The notes beneath the pieces were generated by a model. It saw only the letters and a list, made by a program, of their open reading frames with translations, had not been told where the DNA came from and made no database searches. From positions 62,001 to 126,000 of the forward strand of contig JAUZOO010000011.1 of assembly GCA_030706405.1 (NCBI GenBank): a stretch of DNA of 64,000 nt. The letters are read 5' to 3'. The translations under genes were made by a program, and so were the position numbers. This DNA is from Bacteroidota bacterium. GTDB taxonomy: Bacteria > Bacteroidota > Bacteroidia > Bacteroidales > JAAUTT01. This document shows positions 57,832 to 63,916 of the stretch, in pieces (positions within the stretch are counted from its first letter, which is position 1; each line of letters opens with the position of its first letter).

Positions 57832-57962
57832 TTATATTAAGACTATAATTTCTTTTTATTGACTATTTTCACATCAATATCACAGTTGAATTGAAAACAA
57901 TTGTAACAATCCGATTTTTTAAATTTAAAAGACTTATATTTAAGTTATTGCATATAACCGTA

Positions 57963-58017
57963 TAGAAAACAAAAAGGACATGCAACCTTTCTGCTTACAT
58001 GTCCTTTTTGTTTTCTA
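57963..58017 (-). terminator. Strong hairpin downstream of tRNA-Lys
   Basis: A perfect 20-bp inverted repeat (57963-57982 and 57998-58017) has a 15-nt loop and a T-rich 3' arm. It starts 4 bases after the tRNA on the minus strand, so it ends the tRNA transcript. Confidence 0.8.
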
Positions 58018-58021
58018 TTAG

Positions 58022-58094
58022 TGACCCCGGTGAGAATCGAACTCACGACCCAATGATTAAGAGTCATTTGCTCTACCAGCTGAGCTACGGAGTC
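58022..58094 (-). tRNA. tRNA-Lys (anticodon CTT)
   Basis: On the minus strand 73 nt fold as a cloverleaf. The acceptor GACTCCG pairs with CGGGGTC, the D arm is GCTC..GAGC, and the anticodon stem-loop ATGACTCTTAATCAT presents CTT. The T arm is GTGAGTTCGATTCTCAC with the invariant TTCGA. The gene does not encode CCA. The anticodon reads AAG, hence lysine. Confidence 0.95.
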
Positions 58095-58340
58095 GTTGCT
58101 TTTGCGGTTGCAAATGTATTAAAATAATTTTAAAAAAAGCAACATTATCAAGGTTTCCCTCATAAAAAAACAAATCAACTCTTAAATAGTTATTTTAATG
58201 ACAATTAGTAAAACTAAATCTAAACATGTTTTGGCCGCAGTTAAAATACACCTACAAACTATTCTTCACAATTAACTACTGTTTGATAATACATTACGAC
58301 AATATTCACCTGACAAATATCATTTATTTACAAAAAACAT

Positions 58341-58370
58341 TTTGTTTTCCCGTTTTAATCGATATATTTG
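58341..58370 (+). promoter_or_regulatory. Promoter of the ilv operon
   Basis: TTTG (58341-58344) and TATATTTG (58363-58370), a perfect TAnnTTTG, are 18 nt apart. The predicted start near 58377 lies only about 14 bases before the leader peptide ATG. The region 58095-58340 upstream shows nothing else I can support. Confidence 0.7.
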
Positions 58371-58390
58371 CCAATCTAAAACAGAAAATT

Positions 58391-58456
58391 ATGTCTATTT
58401 ATTCTCGCATTATTAGCCTCGTGGTCGTGGTGCTCGTCAAAAGATTGCCGGGGTGA
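58391..58456 (+). CDS. ilv operon leader peptide
   Basis: The 21-codon peptide MSIYSRIISLVVVVLVKRLPG contains three Ile, three Leu and five Val, so 11 of 21 residues are branched-chain amino acids, with LVVVVLV as the core. It lies between a good promoter and a terminator hairpin in front of ilvD. This is the layout of attenuator leader peptides: scarcity of charged Val, Leu or Ile tRNA stalls the ribosome and favours read-through. An in-frame extension from 58226 is rejected because it starts upstream of the predicted promoter. Confidence 0.88.
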   Translation: MSIYSRIISLVVVVLVKRLPG

Positions 58457-58485
58457 GAATGGATTGTATATATATGAACTTACAG

Positions 58486-58517
58486 AAGCCTTTCTCACAC
58501 CGAGAAGGGCTTTTTTT
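58486..58517 (+). terminator. ilv attenuator terminator
   Basis: AAGCCTTTCTC (58486-58496) pairs with GAGAAGGGCTT (58502-58512), 11 bp with one G-U, followed by seven T. The upstream segment GTGAGAA (58453-58459), at the leader stop codon, can instead pair with TTCTCAC (58492-58498), which would break this stem. That is the expected antiterminator. Confidence 0.85.
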
Positions 58518-58549
58518 ATTTTAAACTGTCACCTTTAAATTATACGAAA

Positions 58550-60376
58550 ATGCCTCAACTACGTAGTGCAACATCGACACAGGGTCGCCGCATGGCAGGA
58601 GCCAGAAGTTTATGGCGTGCCAATGGAATGACCGAAGAGCAAATGGGTAAGCCCATCATTGCTATTGTTAACTCGTTTACCCAATTCGTGCCTGGTCATG
58701 TACACCTTCATAATATCGGGCAACAGATTAAAGCCATTATCGAATCGAAAGGTTGTTTTGCCGCCGAATTTAACACCATTGCTATCGACGACGGTATTGC
58801 TATGGGACACGATGGCATGTTATATTCATTGCCTTCGCGCGACATTATTGCCGACAGTGTTGAATATATGGTAAACGCCCACCAGGCCGACGCTATGATC
58901 TGCATCAGTAACTGCGACAAGATTACCCCAGGAATGCTCATGGCCTCCATGCGCCTCAACATCCCTACCATCTTTGTTTCGGGTGGACCGATGGAAGCAG
59001 GTAATATCGATGGCAAAAAATACGACCTCATTGACGCCATGGTTGCTGCTGCTGACGATTCCGTTTCGGACGAGCAAATTTCAAAACTCGAAAGATCAGC
59101 TTGCCCCACGTGCGGATCATGCTCTGGGATGTTTACGGCCAATTCTATGAACTGTTTAAACGAAGCTATTGGATTAGGCCTTCCCGGCAACGGAACCATT
59201 GTAGCTACTCATAAAAATCGTACGAAACTTTTCGAAAAGGCAGCTAACCTCATCATCGACCTTGCCAACGAATATTATGGTAAGGGCAACGAATCGGTTC
59301 TCCCCCGCTCTATCGCTACCCGCGAAGCTTTCCTCAACGCCATGACGCTCGATATCGCCATGGGAGGCTCAACAAATACTGTTCTTCACCTTTTGGCTGT
59401 TGCTCAGGAAGCTGAGGTAGATTTCAGCATGAAGGATATCGATATGCTTTCACGGCGCACCCCTGTATTAAGCAAAGTAGCACCTAACTCTAATTATCAT
59501 ATTGAAGACGTTAACCGTGCCGGGGGAATCCTGGGAATTCTGGGCGAACTCAGTCGTGGCGGATTGGTTGACACTTCTGTAAAACGTGTTGACGGGCTCT
59601 CCTTAAAAGAAGCTATCGAACAATTCGACCTTACACTCCCAACTGCAACCGACGAAGCGAAGGAAGTCTACAGAAGTGCTCCCGGAGGCGGACGTAACCT
59701 CGTGTTAGGCTCTCAAGGTGCTTCATTTAAAGAATTCGATCTCGATCGTGAAAAAGGATGTATCAGAGATGTTGCTCATTGTTACAACAAAGATGGCGGT
59801 TTGGCTGTTTTATACGGAAACATTGCACAAAACGGTTGCATCGTGAAAACTGCCGGAGTAAGCGATAAAATCTTCCATTTTAAAGGTACTGCCAAAGTAT
59901 TCGAATCGCAGGATGATGCTTGCGCTGGAATTCTTGAAGGAAAAGTACAAGCCGGCGACGTGGTAGTAATTCGCTACGAAGGTCCCAAAGGCGGACCTGG
60001 AATGCAGGAAATGCTCTATCCCACGTCATATATCAAATCAAAACACTTAGGTGAAGCTTGCGCCTTGATTACCGACGGACGTTTCTCCGGAGGAACCTCA
60101 GGGCTTTCAATTGGGCACGTATCACCTGAAGCAGCTTCCGGCGGAGCCATTGCCTTTGTTCGCGACAATGACGCTATCGAAATCTGCATCAGCGACCGCT
60201 CCATTAATCTCTTGGTTAGCGACGAAGAACTTGCCAAACGTAAAGCTGAAGAAGAAAAACGAGGAGATAAAGCTTACACGCCTTCGAAGGAACGCCAACG
60301 CAAAGTATCGAAATCTCTCCAGGCTTATGCCAAAATGGTAAGCTCTGCCGATATGGGCGCAGTACGCATAATCTAA
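58550..60376 (+). CDS. ilvD: Dihydroxy-acid dehydratase
   Basis: The 608-residue enzyme dehydrates dihydroxy acids to the 2-keto acids of valine and isoleucine. Iron-sulphur ligands are visible in [12 protein letters not shown] near residue 118 and [18 protein letters not shown] near 184-201. [23 protein letters not shown] near 505 is the conserved C-terminal active-site loop. Length and motifs fit IlvD rather than the sugar-acid dehydratases. It is the first structural gene after the attenuator and 100 bp before ilvB. Confidence 0.95.
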
Positions 60377-60476: not shown

Positions 60477-62216
60477 ATGGATACATTGACCAAAAAGAAA
60501 GAGGATGAGGGCCAGGCGCCCAAAACAAAACGAATCACCGGTTCGGAAGCTATTATTTTGTCGCTCATCGAAGAAGGTGTGGAAGTGATCTTTGGATACC
60601 CTGGCGGAAATATTATGCCTGTATACGATGCTTTATACCATTATCAGGATAAGCATATCCGGCACATTCTGGCCCGTCACGAACAGGGAGCTGCTCATGC
60701 TGCCCAGGGATATGCCCGTGTATCGGGTAAAGTAGGGGTTGCCTTGGCTACCTCAGGCCCGGGAGCAACCAATCTTATCACCGGAATTGCAGATGCTTTG
60801 CTTGATTCTACTCCTTTGGTCTGTATCACAGGTCAGGTAGGCAGCCCGTTGCTGGGTACCGATGCGTTTCAAGAAACCGACGTTATCGGCATTTCCATGC
60901 CCGTAACCAAATGGAATGTTTTGGTTACTAAAGCCGAAGATATTCCAGCAGCTATTGCTAAAGCTTTTTACATTGCCAAAAGCGGACGCCCAGGCCCCGT
61001 TTTAATTGACATCACCAAAGATGCACAGTTTGCACAGTTCGATTACGAATATAAAAAATGCACCTCGGTACGCAGCTATATTCCGGCACCCAAGGTAGAA
61101 GCCTCCAAAATAGAAGAAGCAGCAACCATCATCAATAGCGCTCAAAAACCATTTGCCTTAATTGGGCAAGGAGTTATTCTCGGCGCTGCCGAAGCCGAAT
61201 TGCGCGCCTTCCTCGAAAAAACAGGAATCCCTGCCGCATGGACATTGCTTGGAAATTCAGCCTTACCAACCGACCACCCTTTAAATGTAGGGATGCTTGG
61301 GATGCACGGAAATTACGGCCCTAACATTAAAAGCAATGAATGTGACGTTCTCATTGCCATCGGTATGCGCTTTGACGACCGCGTAACGGGAGATGTTAAA
61401 CGCTATGCCAAACAGGCTAAGGTTATCCATCTAGAGATTGACCCGGCAGAGGTTGACAAAAACGTAAAAACCACAGTTGCAATATTAGGCGATGTTAAAG
61501 AATCACTTCCTCTGCTGACCGAAAAGGTTTCCGCGAACAAACACGAAGCCTGGATGGAAGAATTTAAAAAATGCGCTGAGATTGAATTTGAAAAAGTAAT
61601 CAAACACGACATCTTCCCTGAAAAAGAAGGTCTCACCATGGGAGAAGTAATTCGCAAGATTAACGAAAAAACCAAAGGTGAAGCCGTAATGGTTACTGAT
61701 GTTGGTCAGCAACAGATGATTGCTTCGCGCTATTTTAAATTCAACAAAACCCGTTCGGTGGTAACATCCGGAGGTTTAGGAACCATGGGATTCGGGCTTC
61801 CGGCAGCCATTGGAGCTAAACTCGGCGCACCCGACCGCGAGGTTATCGCAGTTATCGGCGATGGGGGTTTACAGATGACTATTCAGGAATTGGGCACTAT
61901 CTTCCAGGACGAAGTTCCGGTTAAAATCGTACTTCTTAACAATACCTTCCTGGGAATGGTTCGTCAGTGGCAACAGTTGTTTTTCGACAAACGTTATTCA
62001 TCCACACCGTTGATAAACCCCGATTTTATCGCCATAGCTAAAGCTTATTGCATTGCTGGCGAAAAAGTTACGGACCGTTCGAACCTCGAAGCTGCCATAG
62101 ACACCATGTTGAATCACAAAGGCCCTTACCTGCTCGAAGTAAAAGTAGAAAAGGAAGACAATGTATTCCCAATGGTTCCGGCAGGTTGCTCGGTATCTGA
62201 AATCAGACTTGAATAA
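60477..62216 (+). CDS. ilvB: Acetolactate synthase, large (catalytic) subunit
   Basis: The 579-residue ThDP enzyme condenses pyruvate to acetolactate, or with 2-ketobutyrate to acetohydroxybutyrate. The catalytic Glu lies in ARHEQGAAHAAQGYAR near residue 64, and the ThDP/Mg motif runs from GDGGLQMT near 461 to LLNNTFLGMVRQWQ near 487-500. FGYPGGNIMPVYDAL at the N-terminus is typical. The regulatory subunit gene follows after 39 bp. It acts in the cytoplasm at the first shared step of branched-chain synthesis. Confidence 0.96.
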   Translation: MDTLTKKKEDEGQAPKTKRITGSEAIILSLIEEGVEVIFGYPGGNIMPVYDALYHYQDKHIRHILARHEQGAAHAAQGYARVSGKVGVALATSGPGATNLITGIADALLDSTPLVCITGQVGSPLLGTDAFQETDVIGISMPVTKWNVLVTKAEDIPAAIAKAFYIAKSGRPGPVLIDITKDAQFAQFDYEYKKCTSVRSYIPAPKVEASKIEEAATIINSAQKPFALIGQGVILGAAEAELRAFLEKTGIPAAWTLLGNSALPTDHPLNVGMLGMHGNYGPNIKSNECDVLIAIGMRFDDRVTGDVKRYAKQAKVIHLEIDPAEVDKNVKTTVAILGDVKESLPLLTEKVSANKHEAWMEEFKKCAEIEFEKVIKHDIFPEKEGLTMGEVIRKINEKTKGEAVMVTDVGQQQMIASRYFKFNKTRSVVTSGGLGTMGFGLPAAIGAKLGAPDREVIAVIGDGGLQMTIQELGTIFQDEVPVKIVLLNNTFLGMVRQWQQLFFDKRYSSTPLINPDFIAIAKAYCIAGEKVTDRSNLEAAIDTMLNHKGPYLLEVKVEKEDNVFPMVPAGCSVSEIRLE

Positions 62217-62255: not shown

Positions 62256-62786
62256 ATGGAACAAGAATATTTCATAACCGCATTTTCGGAAAACAGCATA
62301 GGGCTTCTAAACCGCATCACCATTATATTTACGAGGCGGCAGGTCAACATCGAAAGTCTCAATGTTTCTCAGTCGTCTATTCATGGGATTCATAAATTTA
62401 CCATCGTGGTAAACACAACCCGCGAAAAAGTCGAAAAAGTTACCAAACAGATAGAGAAACTGGTAGAAGTTCTTAAAGCCTTCTATCACACCAGCGAAGA
62501 GGTTATTCAGCAGGAAATTGCTGTTTACAAAGTAAAAACCGAAGCCCTGATGAACAGCAAAGAAATAGAAAACCTGGTACGCAATTCCGGCGCCCGCATT
62601 CTTGAGATTACCCCAGACTATACCGTGATTGAAAAAACCGGCTATAAATCGGAAACTCAGGAGTTATTCGACAAACTCGATCAATACGGAGTGACTCAGT
62701 TTACCCGTTCGGGAACCGTAGCTGTAACTAAAAATCCGAAAGAATTACTTACCGAATACCTCAAAGAGGTAGGGTGGAAAGCGTAA
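62256..62786 (+). CDS. ilvN: Acetolactate synthase, small (regulatory) subunit
   Basis: The 176-residue protein begins with an ACT domain (EYFITAFSENSIGLLNRITIIF, residues 3-24, to about 80), which binds valine for feedback control. A second alpha/beta domain follows (about 90-170, with NSGARILEITPDYTVIEKTG). Length is typical of IlvN/IlvH. It starts 39 bp after ilvB and forms a complex with it. Confidence 0.93.
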   Translation: MEQEYFITAFSENSIGLLNRITIIFTRRQVNIESLNVSQSSIHGIHKFTIVVNTTREKVEKVTKQIEKLVEVLKAFYHTSEEVIQQEIAVYKVKTEALMNSKEIENLVRNSGARILEITPDYTVIEKTGYKSETQELFDKLDQYGVTQFTRSGTVAVTKNPKELLTEYLKEVGWKA

Positions 62787-62866: not shown

Positions 62867-63916
62867 ATGGCAAAATTGATTTTTGGAGGAGTTGAAGAAA
62901 ACGTAATGACACGTGAAGAATTTCCACTCGCCAAAGCACAGGAAGTGTTAAAGAATGAAACAGTTGCAGTTATCGGTTACGGTGTTCAGGGACCTGGACA
63001 GGCTATGAACCTCCGTGACAACGGTATCAACGTTATCGTAGGACAACGTAAACCTTCGAAATCTTGGGACAAAGCAGTTGCTGACGGTTTTGTACCCGGC
63101 AAAACCCTTTTCGAAATTGAAGAAGCTCTCGAAAAAGCAACTATCATTTGCTATCTTCTTTCTGATGCTGCTCAAATCGCCGCCTGGCCAACCGTAAAAA
63201 AACACCTTACCACTGGTAAAGCTTTATATTTCTCCCATGGTTTTGGTATCACCTATAAAGAACGTACCGGAATTGTTCCTCCTGCTGATGTTGACGTAAT
63301 TCTCGTTGCTCCTAAAGGTTCGGGAACTTCACTTCGTCGCTTGTTCGTAGAAGGCAAAGGCTTAAACTCAAGCTATGCTATCTTCCAGGATGCTACCGGA
63401 AAAGCTAAAGATCGTGTTTTAGCATTAGGTATCGCTGTTGGTTCGGGTTACCTTTTCGAAACTAATTTCAAACGCGAAGTATATAGCGACCTTACCGGTG
63501 AACGTGGCACTTTGATGGGTTGTATTCAGGGTATCTTTGCCGCTCAGTACGAAGTTCTCCGTGCAAACGGTCACACTCCTTCTGAAGCTTTCAACGAAAC
63601 TGTTGAAGAACTTACCCAGAGCCTTATGCCTTTGGTTGCCGAAAACGGTATGGACTGGATGTACGCCAACTGCTCAACTACCGCTCAACGTGGCGCTCTC
63701 GACTGGTTCCCACGTTTCCGCGATGCAGTTAAACCTGTTTTCGAAAAACTTTACAGCGAAGTAGCTTGCGGAAACGAAGCTCAACGTTCTATCGACACCA
63801 ACAGCCAGGTTGATTACCGCGAAAAGCTGGATGCTGAATTGAAAGAACTTCACGAATCAGAAATGTGGCAAGCTGGACAAACCGTTCGTTCGCTCCGTCC
63901 TGAACGTAATAAATAA
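62867..63916 (+). CDS. ilvC: Ketol-acid reductoisomerase
   Basis: The 349-residue enzyme converts acetolactate to dihydroxyisovalerate with NADPH and magnesium. The Rossmann motif GYGVQGPGQAMNLRD is near residues 38-52 and the cofactor-specificity loop GQRKPSKSW near 58-66. SHGFGI and the knotted C-terminal domain with DLTGERGTLMG and ESMW-like SEMWQAG follow. This is the short class I form. It completes the ilvDBNC order, 80 bp after ilvN, and ends before a strong terminator. Confidence 0.96.
   Translation: MAKLIFGGVEENVMTREEFPLAKAQEVLKNETVAVIGYGVQGPGQAMNLRDNGINVIVGQRKPSKSWDKAVADGFVPGKTLFEIEEALEKATIICYLLSDAAQIAAWPTVKKHLTTGKALYFSHGFGITYKERTGIVPPADVDVILVAPKGSGTSLRRLFVEGKGLNSSYAIFQDATGKAKDRVLALGIAVGSGYLFETNFKREVYSDLTGERGTLMGCIQGIFAAQYEVLRANGHTPSEAFNETVEELTQSLMPLVAENGMDWMYANCSTTAQRGALDWFPRFRDAVKPVFEKLYSEVACGNEAQRSIDTNSQVDYREKLDAELKELHESEMWQAGQTVRSLRPERNK

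Follow-up and report, generated by a model that had tools for sequence, protein, structure and literature searches.

Leaders of the enterobacterial ilv operons encode a peptide rich in branched-chain amino acids (BCAAs) and can form an antiterminator or a terminator, the two being mutually exclusive. A passage in PMC1183508 names ilvGMEDA and ilvBN of enterobacteria as attenuated operons, and parts of PMC11857589 and PMC10272879 describe a BCAA operon with a leader ORF in Corynebacterium (the ilvBNC attenuator and the ilvB-II uORF, respectively). In Bacteroidetes, the Bacteroid-trp motif (RF01692) appears as a likely cis-regulatory RNA in the part of Weinberg et al. (2010; PMC2864571) that treats it, and, judged by its name, is probably a trp-operon leader. 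In the relevant passages of Sun et al. (2013; PMC3766115), 7.6 RNA sites are given per Bacteroidaceae genome and Ile/Val attenuators are said to be absent from Rfam at that time; short ORFs reminiscent of attenuation leaders are described for Bacteroides thetaiotaomicron in passages of PMC7366714 that name no ilv case. Among the matches listed in a search of the open-licence PMC literature, no paper dealt with ilv attenuation in Bacteroidota. Vitreschak and coworkers reportedly counted Bacteroidetes/Chlorobi, in 2004, among the groups with candidate attenuators of amino acid operons.

We investigated the region upstream of ilvD in a 64,000-nt stretch of Bacteroidales DNA (contig JAUZOO010000011.1, positions 62,001 to 126,000; hereafter the window), and its sequence, its predicted folds, and the comparison with relatives make it very probable that this region is a classical four-segment, ribosome-mediated transcription attenuator of an ilvDBNC operon with a BCAA leader. 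Compared by description, it resembles the ilvGMEDA and ilvBN attenuators in having a BCAA-rich leader, mutually exclusive antiterminator and terminator, and an operon for BCAA synthesis. It differs from them in phylum, in the gene order ilvD-B-N-C, in a Bacteroidota-type promoter motif, in the position of segment 1, which in the genus of the window lies upstream of the stall codons, and in that the Rfam leader families give no match here. The Corynebacterium ilvBNC attenuator, again compared by description and from part of its source (PMC11857589), also combines a leader ORF with alternative hairpins, but belongs to Actinobacteria, whereas the Bacteroid-trp motif concerns another amino acid and, at the gathering score, matched neither the window nor the trpE locus of the same genome (L201). 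The mechanism is textbook; the ilv leader is apparently a new, uncatalogued example of it, not the discovery of the mechanism in the phylum.

The operon downstream makes the same amino acids as those encoded by the leader codons. On the + strand, ilvD (dihydroxy-acid dehydratase, 58550–60376; NF009103, 1058.2 bits, cut-off 710; TIGR00110, 785.9 bits, cut-off 618.15) is followed by ilvB (acetolactate synthase large subunit, 60477–62216; TIGR00118, 720.5 bits, cut-off 538.35), ilvN (acetolactate synthase small subunit, 62256–62786; TIGR00119, 107 bits, cut-off 56.9), and ilvC (ketol-acid reductoisomerase, 62867–63916; TIGR00465, 320.1 bits, cut-off 226.15).

The short leader ORF (58391–58456, + strand) has ATG at 58391–58393, 21 codons, and TGA at 58454–58456, and its peptide, MSIYSRIISLVVVVLVKRLPG, contains 3 Ile, 3 Leu, and 5 Val. 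An earlier, sequence-only reading of this DNA had described a 21-codon peptide with 11 branched-chain residues and a Val run at 58421–58438, and direct reading gave exactly this count and, for codons 11–16 (VVVVLV), exactly these coordinates. The putative control codons, identified from the sequence and from codon bias in relatives, are CTC GTG GTC GTG GTG CTC GTC (L V V V V L V) at 58418–58438 (+ strand), a run without CTA. The reading frame stays open 5′ as far as an ATG at 58226 (a mechanical ORF of 76 aa), and we infer the start codon: the ATG at 58391 was chosen as the first downstream of the predicted promoter and because the resulting leader is similar in size to those of relatives, where BCAA-rich leaders also occur. 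Leaders of the ilv type are probably small enough for gene callers to miss.

The predicted promoter lies just upstream of this ATG. The octamer TATATTTG (58363–58370, + strand) is a candidate −7 element that fits TAnnTTTG, which we take to be the Bacteroidota −7 consensus, and TTTG at 58341–58344 (+ strand), 18 nt ahead of it, is a candidate −33 element of the same presumed promoter type. Transcription is predicted to start a few bases past TATATTTG, at about 58375–58379. Of 100 leaders, 88 carried TAnnTTTG in the 130 nt ahead of their codon run, compared with 245 of 2000 shuffles (the other three of the 103 leaders defined below had too little upstream DNA); a sigma-70 promoter scan returned 3 sites with 3.0 expected, no excess over chance. 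The closest upstream genes and a tRNA-Lys (58021–58094) are on the − strand, and + strand ORFs upstream of the leader are either antisense to − strand genes or the tRNA, or the leader frame itself. With upstream neighbors on the − strand, the terminator after the leader most likely serves only transcripts that begin in the gap. Directly past the 3′ end of tRNA-Lys we saw by eye a long inverted repeat (57962–58018), probably the transcription terminator of that − strand tRNA.

Between the leader and ilvD, in the 93 nt that follow the leader stop, sequence and folding predict an intrinsic terminator, in agreement with the terminator stem of the sequence-only reading: a 13-pair stem (58484–58496 with 58502–58514), a 5-nt loop, and a T tract at 58511–58517 (fold −18.0 kcal/mol, z = −5.6). 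Its 3′ arm and T tract (58502–58517, + strand) constitute segment 4. GTGAGAA (58453–58459) and TTCTCAC (58492–58498), proposed as an alternative pairing, are present at those positions, and the pairing does overlap the terminator 5′ arm; its extent had been underestimated, the 7 bp forming the core of a longer helix. In the fold of this antiterminator (−18.6 kcal/mol), segment 2 (58449–58468, + strand), which overlaps the leader stop codon, pairs with segment 3 (58481–58502, + strand), which overlaps the terminator 5′ arm, through helices 58449–58451/58500–58502, 58453–58459/58492–58498, 58461–58462/58489–58490, and 58464–58468/58481–58485. Antiterminator and terminator thus share an arm and, with −18.6 against −18.0 kcal/mol for the terminator alone, are almost equal in energy. 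In folds that contain both arms, the lower energy, −19.8 kcal/mol, belongs to the terminator form.

The three parts that had been called visible, leader, terminator, and alternative pairing, are therefore confirmed, but a fourth had been missed. Segment 1, the predicted protector arm (58397–58408, + strand), forms 12 pairs with 58453–58464 and sits upstream of the stall codons. With it, the locus has every segment of the classical four-part ribosome-mediated attenuator. Segments 1 and 2 together (58391–58470) fold at −20.6 kcal/mol, and an equally good protector pairing arose in 2 of 100 shuffles. Within the genus, L082, L084, and L085 show this pairing clearly and L083 shows it weakly (clear in two of the three other members with upstream DNA). 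Among the 103 leaders, segment 1:2 pairing reached the 5% shuffle level in 27, with about 5 expected; it is enriched, not general.

The transcript was also folded with a ribosome masked. With a ribosome at the stop codon (58439–58470 masked), the 2:3 antiterminator did not form and the terminator did. With a ribosome masked on the Val codons, 2:3 was the equilibrium minimum only until the transcript reached about 58506, and once 58512 had been transcribed the minimum had returned to 1:2 plus 3:4. Without a ribosome, 2:3 was likewise the minimum at 58500 and 58506, with the same switch later. Because the equilibrium folds are alike with and without a stalled ribosome, the outcome would be set by kinetics or by the stalled ribosome, or one behind it, holding segment 1.

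We looked for the same arrangement upstream of ilvD in relatives, using a detector that required a leader with at least 6 I/L/V in 10 residues and a terminator of −7 kcal/mol or lower, and took as its third part the best pairing of the terminator 5′ arm with the stretch that separates leader and terminator. The loci came from named contigs (the best 80 of 311), 5 family genomes, and 295 order genomes; 126 of the latter had an ilvD match, and upstream DNA was taken from 110 loci, the order matches left out being weaker, truncated, at a contig edge, or paralogous. L086 was omitted because it had no upstream DNA, L039 was too short, and L153, L183, L187, L026, L034, L037, and L077 were not anchorable. 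Of the 107 order loci that could be analysed, among them the window, 86 had the composite, compared with only 33 of 2140 shuffles and 7 of the 107 reverse complements; when pairing of −8 kcal/mol or lower was demanded, 84 order loci and 12 shuffles remained. Among the named contigs, it was present in 24 of 75 (shuffles: 18 of 1500; reverse complements: 3). Divided by phylum from the record titles, these were 23 of 35 Bacteroidota contigs against 1 of 40 from other phyla, and that one failed a stricter filter. The named matches include Anaerophaga, Natronoflexus, Carboxylicivirga, and Alkalitalea, together with MAGs labelled Tannerellaceae, Prolixibacteraceae, and Dysgonamonadaceae, while in three other Dysgonamonadaceae contigs the detector called none. 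It also made no call at 21 of the 107 order loci, which range from a good BCAA leader without a called terminator (e.g., L156), via loci that have something of both parts, to neither part, and on 12 of the 35 named Bacteroidota contigs; at L007 (Geofilum) leader and stem are visible, yet no call was made. In a search of 247 genomes of the class, all matches outside the order had at most 40% identity.

From 110 matches we retained a confident set of 103 leaders (80 from the order and 23 from named contigs, of which 89 share <85% similarity with each other); L097, L108, L125, L138, L148, L150, and L067 failed the energy or spacing filter. The 2:3 energy limit was exceeded by 2 of 86 order matches and 0 of 24 others, and filtering on this energy favors the following swap test a little. 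Segment 3 has 88 distinct strings among the 103 leaders; segment 2 nevertheless paired better with its own segment-3 arm than with the mean of the others in 98 of 103, and in 73 of the 103 leaders the own arm was among the top tenth. Only positions that pair in both structures were counted; the commonest triples there were GCG (404), ATA (256), TAT (117), TGC (53), and ATG (44), followed by GTA (36), CGC (32), TGT (16), GTG (9), and CGT (9), some types containing G-U. Segment 3 thus takes all four bases and its partners in segments 2 and 4 follow, i.e., the three vary jointly. Conservation of leader and pairing in relatives, which the sequence-only reading had suggested as a check, was therefore borne out: leader, terminator, and exclusive pairing recur and co-vary.

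The spacing between control codons and segment 2, which that reading had omitted, is also constrained, the last BCAA codons preceding segment 2 by roughly one ribosome edge. Segment 2 followed the beginning of the 8-codon run by 26–38 nt in 86% of the 86 order matches against 27% of the 33 shuffle matches, and the last BCAA codon was a median of 9 nt from segment 2 against 16 nt in shuffle matches. In 81 of 103 leaders the stop codon falls within or beside the beginning of segment 2, the window's own stop overlapping segment 2, and in the other 22 the ORF extends further into or beyond segment 2; either way, a ribosome beyond the codon run would be able to cover segment 2. Given usual ribosome footprint sizes, segment 2 would be accessible when the ribosome has stalled and covered when it stands at the stop.

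Codon choice in the run departs from that of ilvD. Pooled over the runs and over 46 ilvD genes from the same set of loci, the frequency was 0.50 against 0.14 for GTC, 0.22 against 0.04 for CTA, 0.31 against 0.15 for CTC, and 0.84 against 0.47 for ATT; part of the ATT and CTC excess could be due to base pairing of segment 1 and not to decoding. Of the 824 codons in the pooled runs, 334 are for Val, 204 for Leu, and 189 for Ile, and valine, as the commonest, is the likeliest main signal.

We computed the sequence parts, folds, arm co-variation, geometry, codon bias, and operon identity, and from them we infer translation of the leader, stalling, and a change in read-through as follows. Transcription would begin just upstream of the leader. 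When charged Val, Leu, and Ile tRNAs are plentiful, the ribosome would reach the stop at 58454–58456 and cover segment 2, leaving segment 3 to pair with segment 4, and transcription would terminate at 58511–58517. When BCAAs, valine above all, are scarce, the ribosome would stall within 58418–58438 with its front edge just short of segment 2, so that 2:3 could pair once segment 3 is transcribed; the terminator would then be blocked and the polymerase would continue into ilvD. Whenever segment 1 is free of the ribosome, its pairing with segment 2 would favor termination.

As the sequence-only reading had proposed, ribosome-mediated attenuation through the BCAA-rich leader is the best explanation for this locus. 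Other explanations were weighed against the same data. The terminator might be constitutive, and the short ORF and alternative pairing fortuitous: AT-rich DNA yields some T tracts by chance and is rich in I/L/V codons, and the 33 shuffles that passed the detector are consistent with this. Dinucleotide shuffling of 58150–58549 likewise gave some BCAA leader-plus-terminator composite in 40 of 3000 replicates, yet none of the 3000 attained the strength of the window (terminator ≤ −15 and alternative pairing ≤ −13 kcal/mol). A chance origin also leaves unexplained why the composite recurs in relatives with co-varying arms, constant spacing, and biased codons, and there is no evident + strand gene upstream that would need a terminator here, which makes this explanation exceedingly improbable.

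Terminator and antiterminator taken by themselves would be compatible with any sensor, be it a T-box, a metabolite riboswitch, or an RNA-binding protein, with the ORF incidental, and T-boxes do control ilv genes in some Firmicutes. Against this, Rfam 15 gave no match at the gathering score in the window except tRNA, and the seven matches with E ≤ 5 in 58300–58560 were all well below cut-off and included no T-box. The only leader-peptide family among them was Phe_leader (18.1 bits, cut-off 55), so that the locus falls in no Rfam leader or T-box family. The predicted transcript ahead of segment 2 is only about 75 nt, mostly leader ORF, and an untranslated ORF would not be expected to show the BCAA run, its constrained distance from segment 2, or the preference for GTC and CTA; another sensor is accordingly highly unlikely. 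The leader might instead act chiefly by translational coupling to ilvD or as a trans-acting peptide, with attenuation secondary, and PMC7298713 reports a leader peptide of Sinorhizobium meliloti, peTrpL, that acts in trans. Coupling across 93 nt and a terminator is difficult to reconcile with the layout of the locus, and leader peptides that diverge widely outside the BCAA run are a poor fit to a peptide with a conserved target; we regard this mode of action as extremely doubtful. Some observations weigh against ribosome-mediated attenuation as well: the equilibrium folds with a stalled ribosome keep 2:3 only until about 58506, segment 1 lies upstream of the stall codons and its pairing is not general in relatives, and the detector made no call at 21 of the 107 order loci.

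Leaders of similar construction stand before other amino acid genes of the genome. The pattern GAGAATGG-N15-45-CCWTTCTC, the core of the 2:3 pairing, matches the 4.93 Mb only twice, once upstream of ilvD and once upstream of leuA (control pattern: 0). The leuA locus (L193, G000:C2, − strand) has the leader MRNLFAIFALIIATLIILRD with GAGAATGG, then a CCATTCTC terminator, and is built like the ilv attenuator. At trpE (L201, G000:C2), a Trp leader, MNNISLNRNWWWRLLYSISRNEE, is followed by a strong terminator upstream of the gene. At hisG (L197, G000:C12, − strand), two His-rich leaders are arranged in tandem, each with its own terminator, and two terminators, each after a short ORF with His codons, precede hisG in five of five genomes of the genus (L197, L231, L232, L233, and L234), three of the ten leaders, which were read by eye, having only 2–3 His. 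From 37 order genomes with a hisG match, 30 loci were taken, 11 of which were not anchorable; a His leader with terminator was found at 14 of the 19 analysed against 0 of 380 shuffles, and two modules were called in 1 of 19, the window's own genome. No Rfam match was obtained at the gathering score in the leu, his, thr, and trp loci (L193, L197, L198, and L201), and no Thr leader was seen by eye at the aspartokinase loci L198 and L199. Upstream of an 837-aa aspartokinase-family open frame at L198 (G000:C20, − strand), there are hairpin-like repeats without a Thr or Ile leader by eye. A search for matching plasmid DNA returned no match.

The tandem his attenuators are more unusual than the ilv attenuator, and two in series, if real, would make control sharper or extend its range compared with one. 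Whether attenuation is the default for ilv, leu, his, and trp operons across Bacteroidales, through families outside Rfam that share a spacing rule and with one genus carrying two serial His attenuators, we consider an evenly balanced proposition. For ilv itself, there is strong comparative support for BCAA attenuation at most examinable ilvD operons of Bacteroidales (86 of 107), a group with few catalogued cis-regulatory RNAs. The 103 leaders constitute a ready family for annotation and, since their runs favor GTC, CTA, and ATT beyond ilvD usage, a natural data set for theories of control-codon choice.
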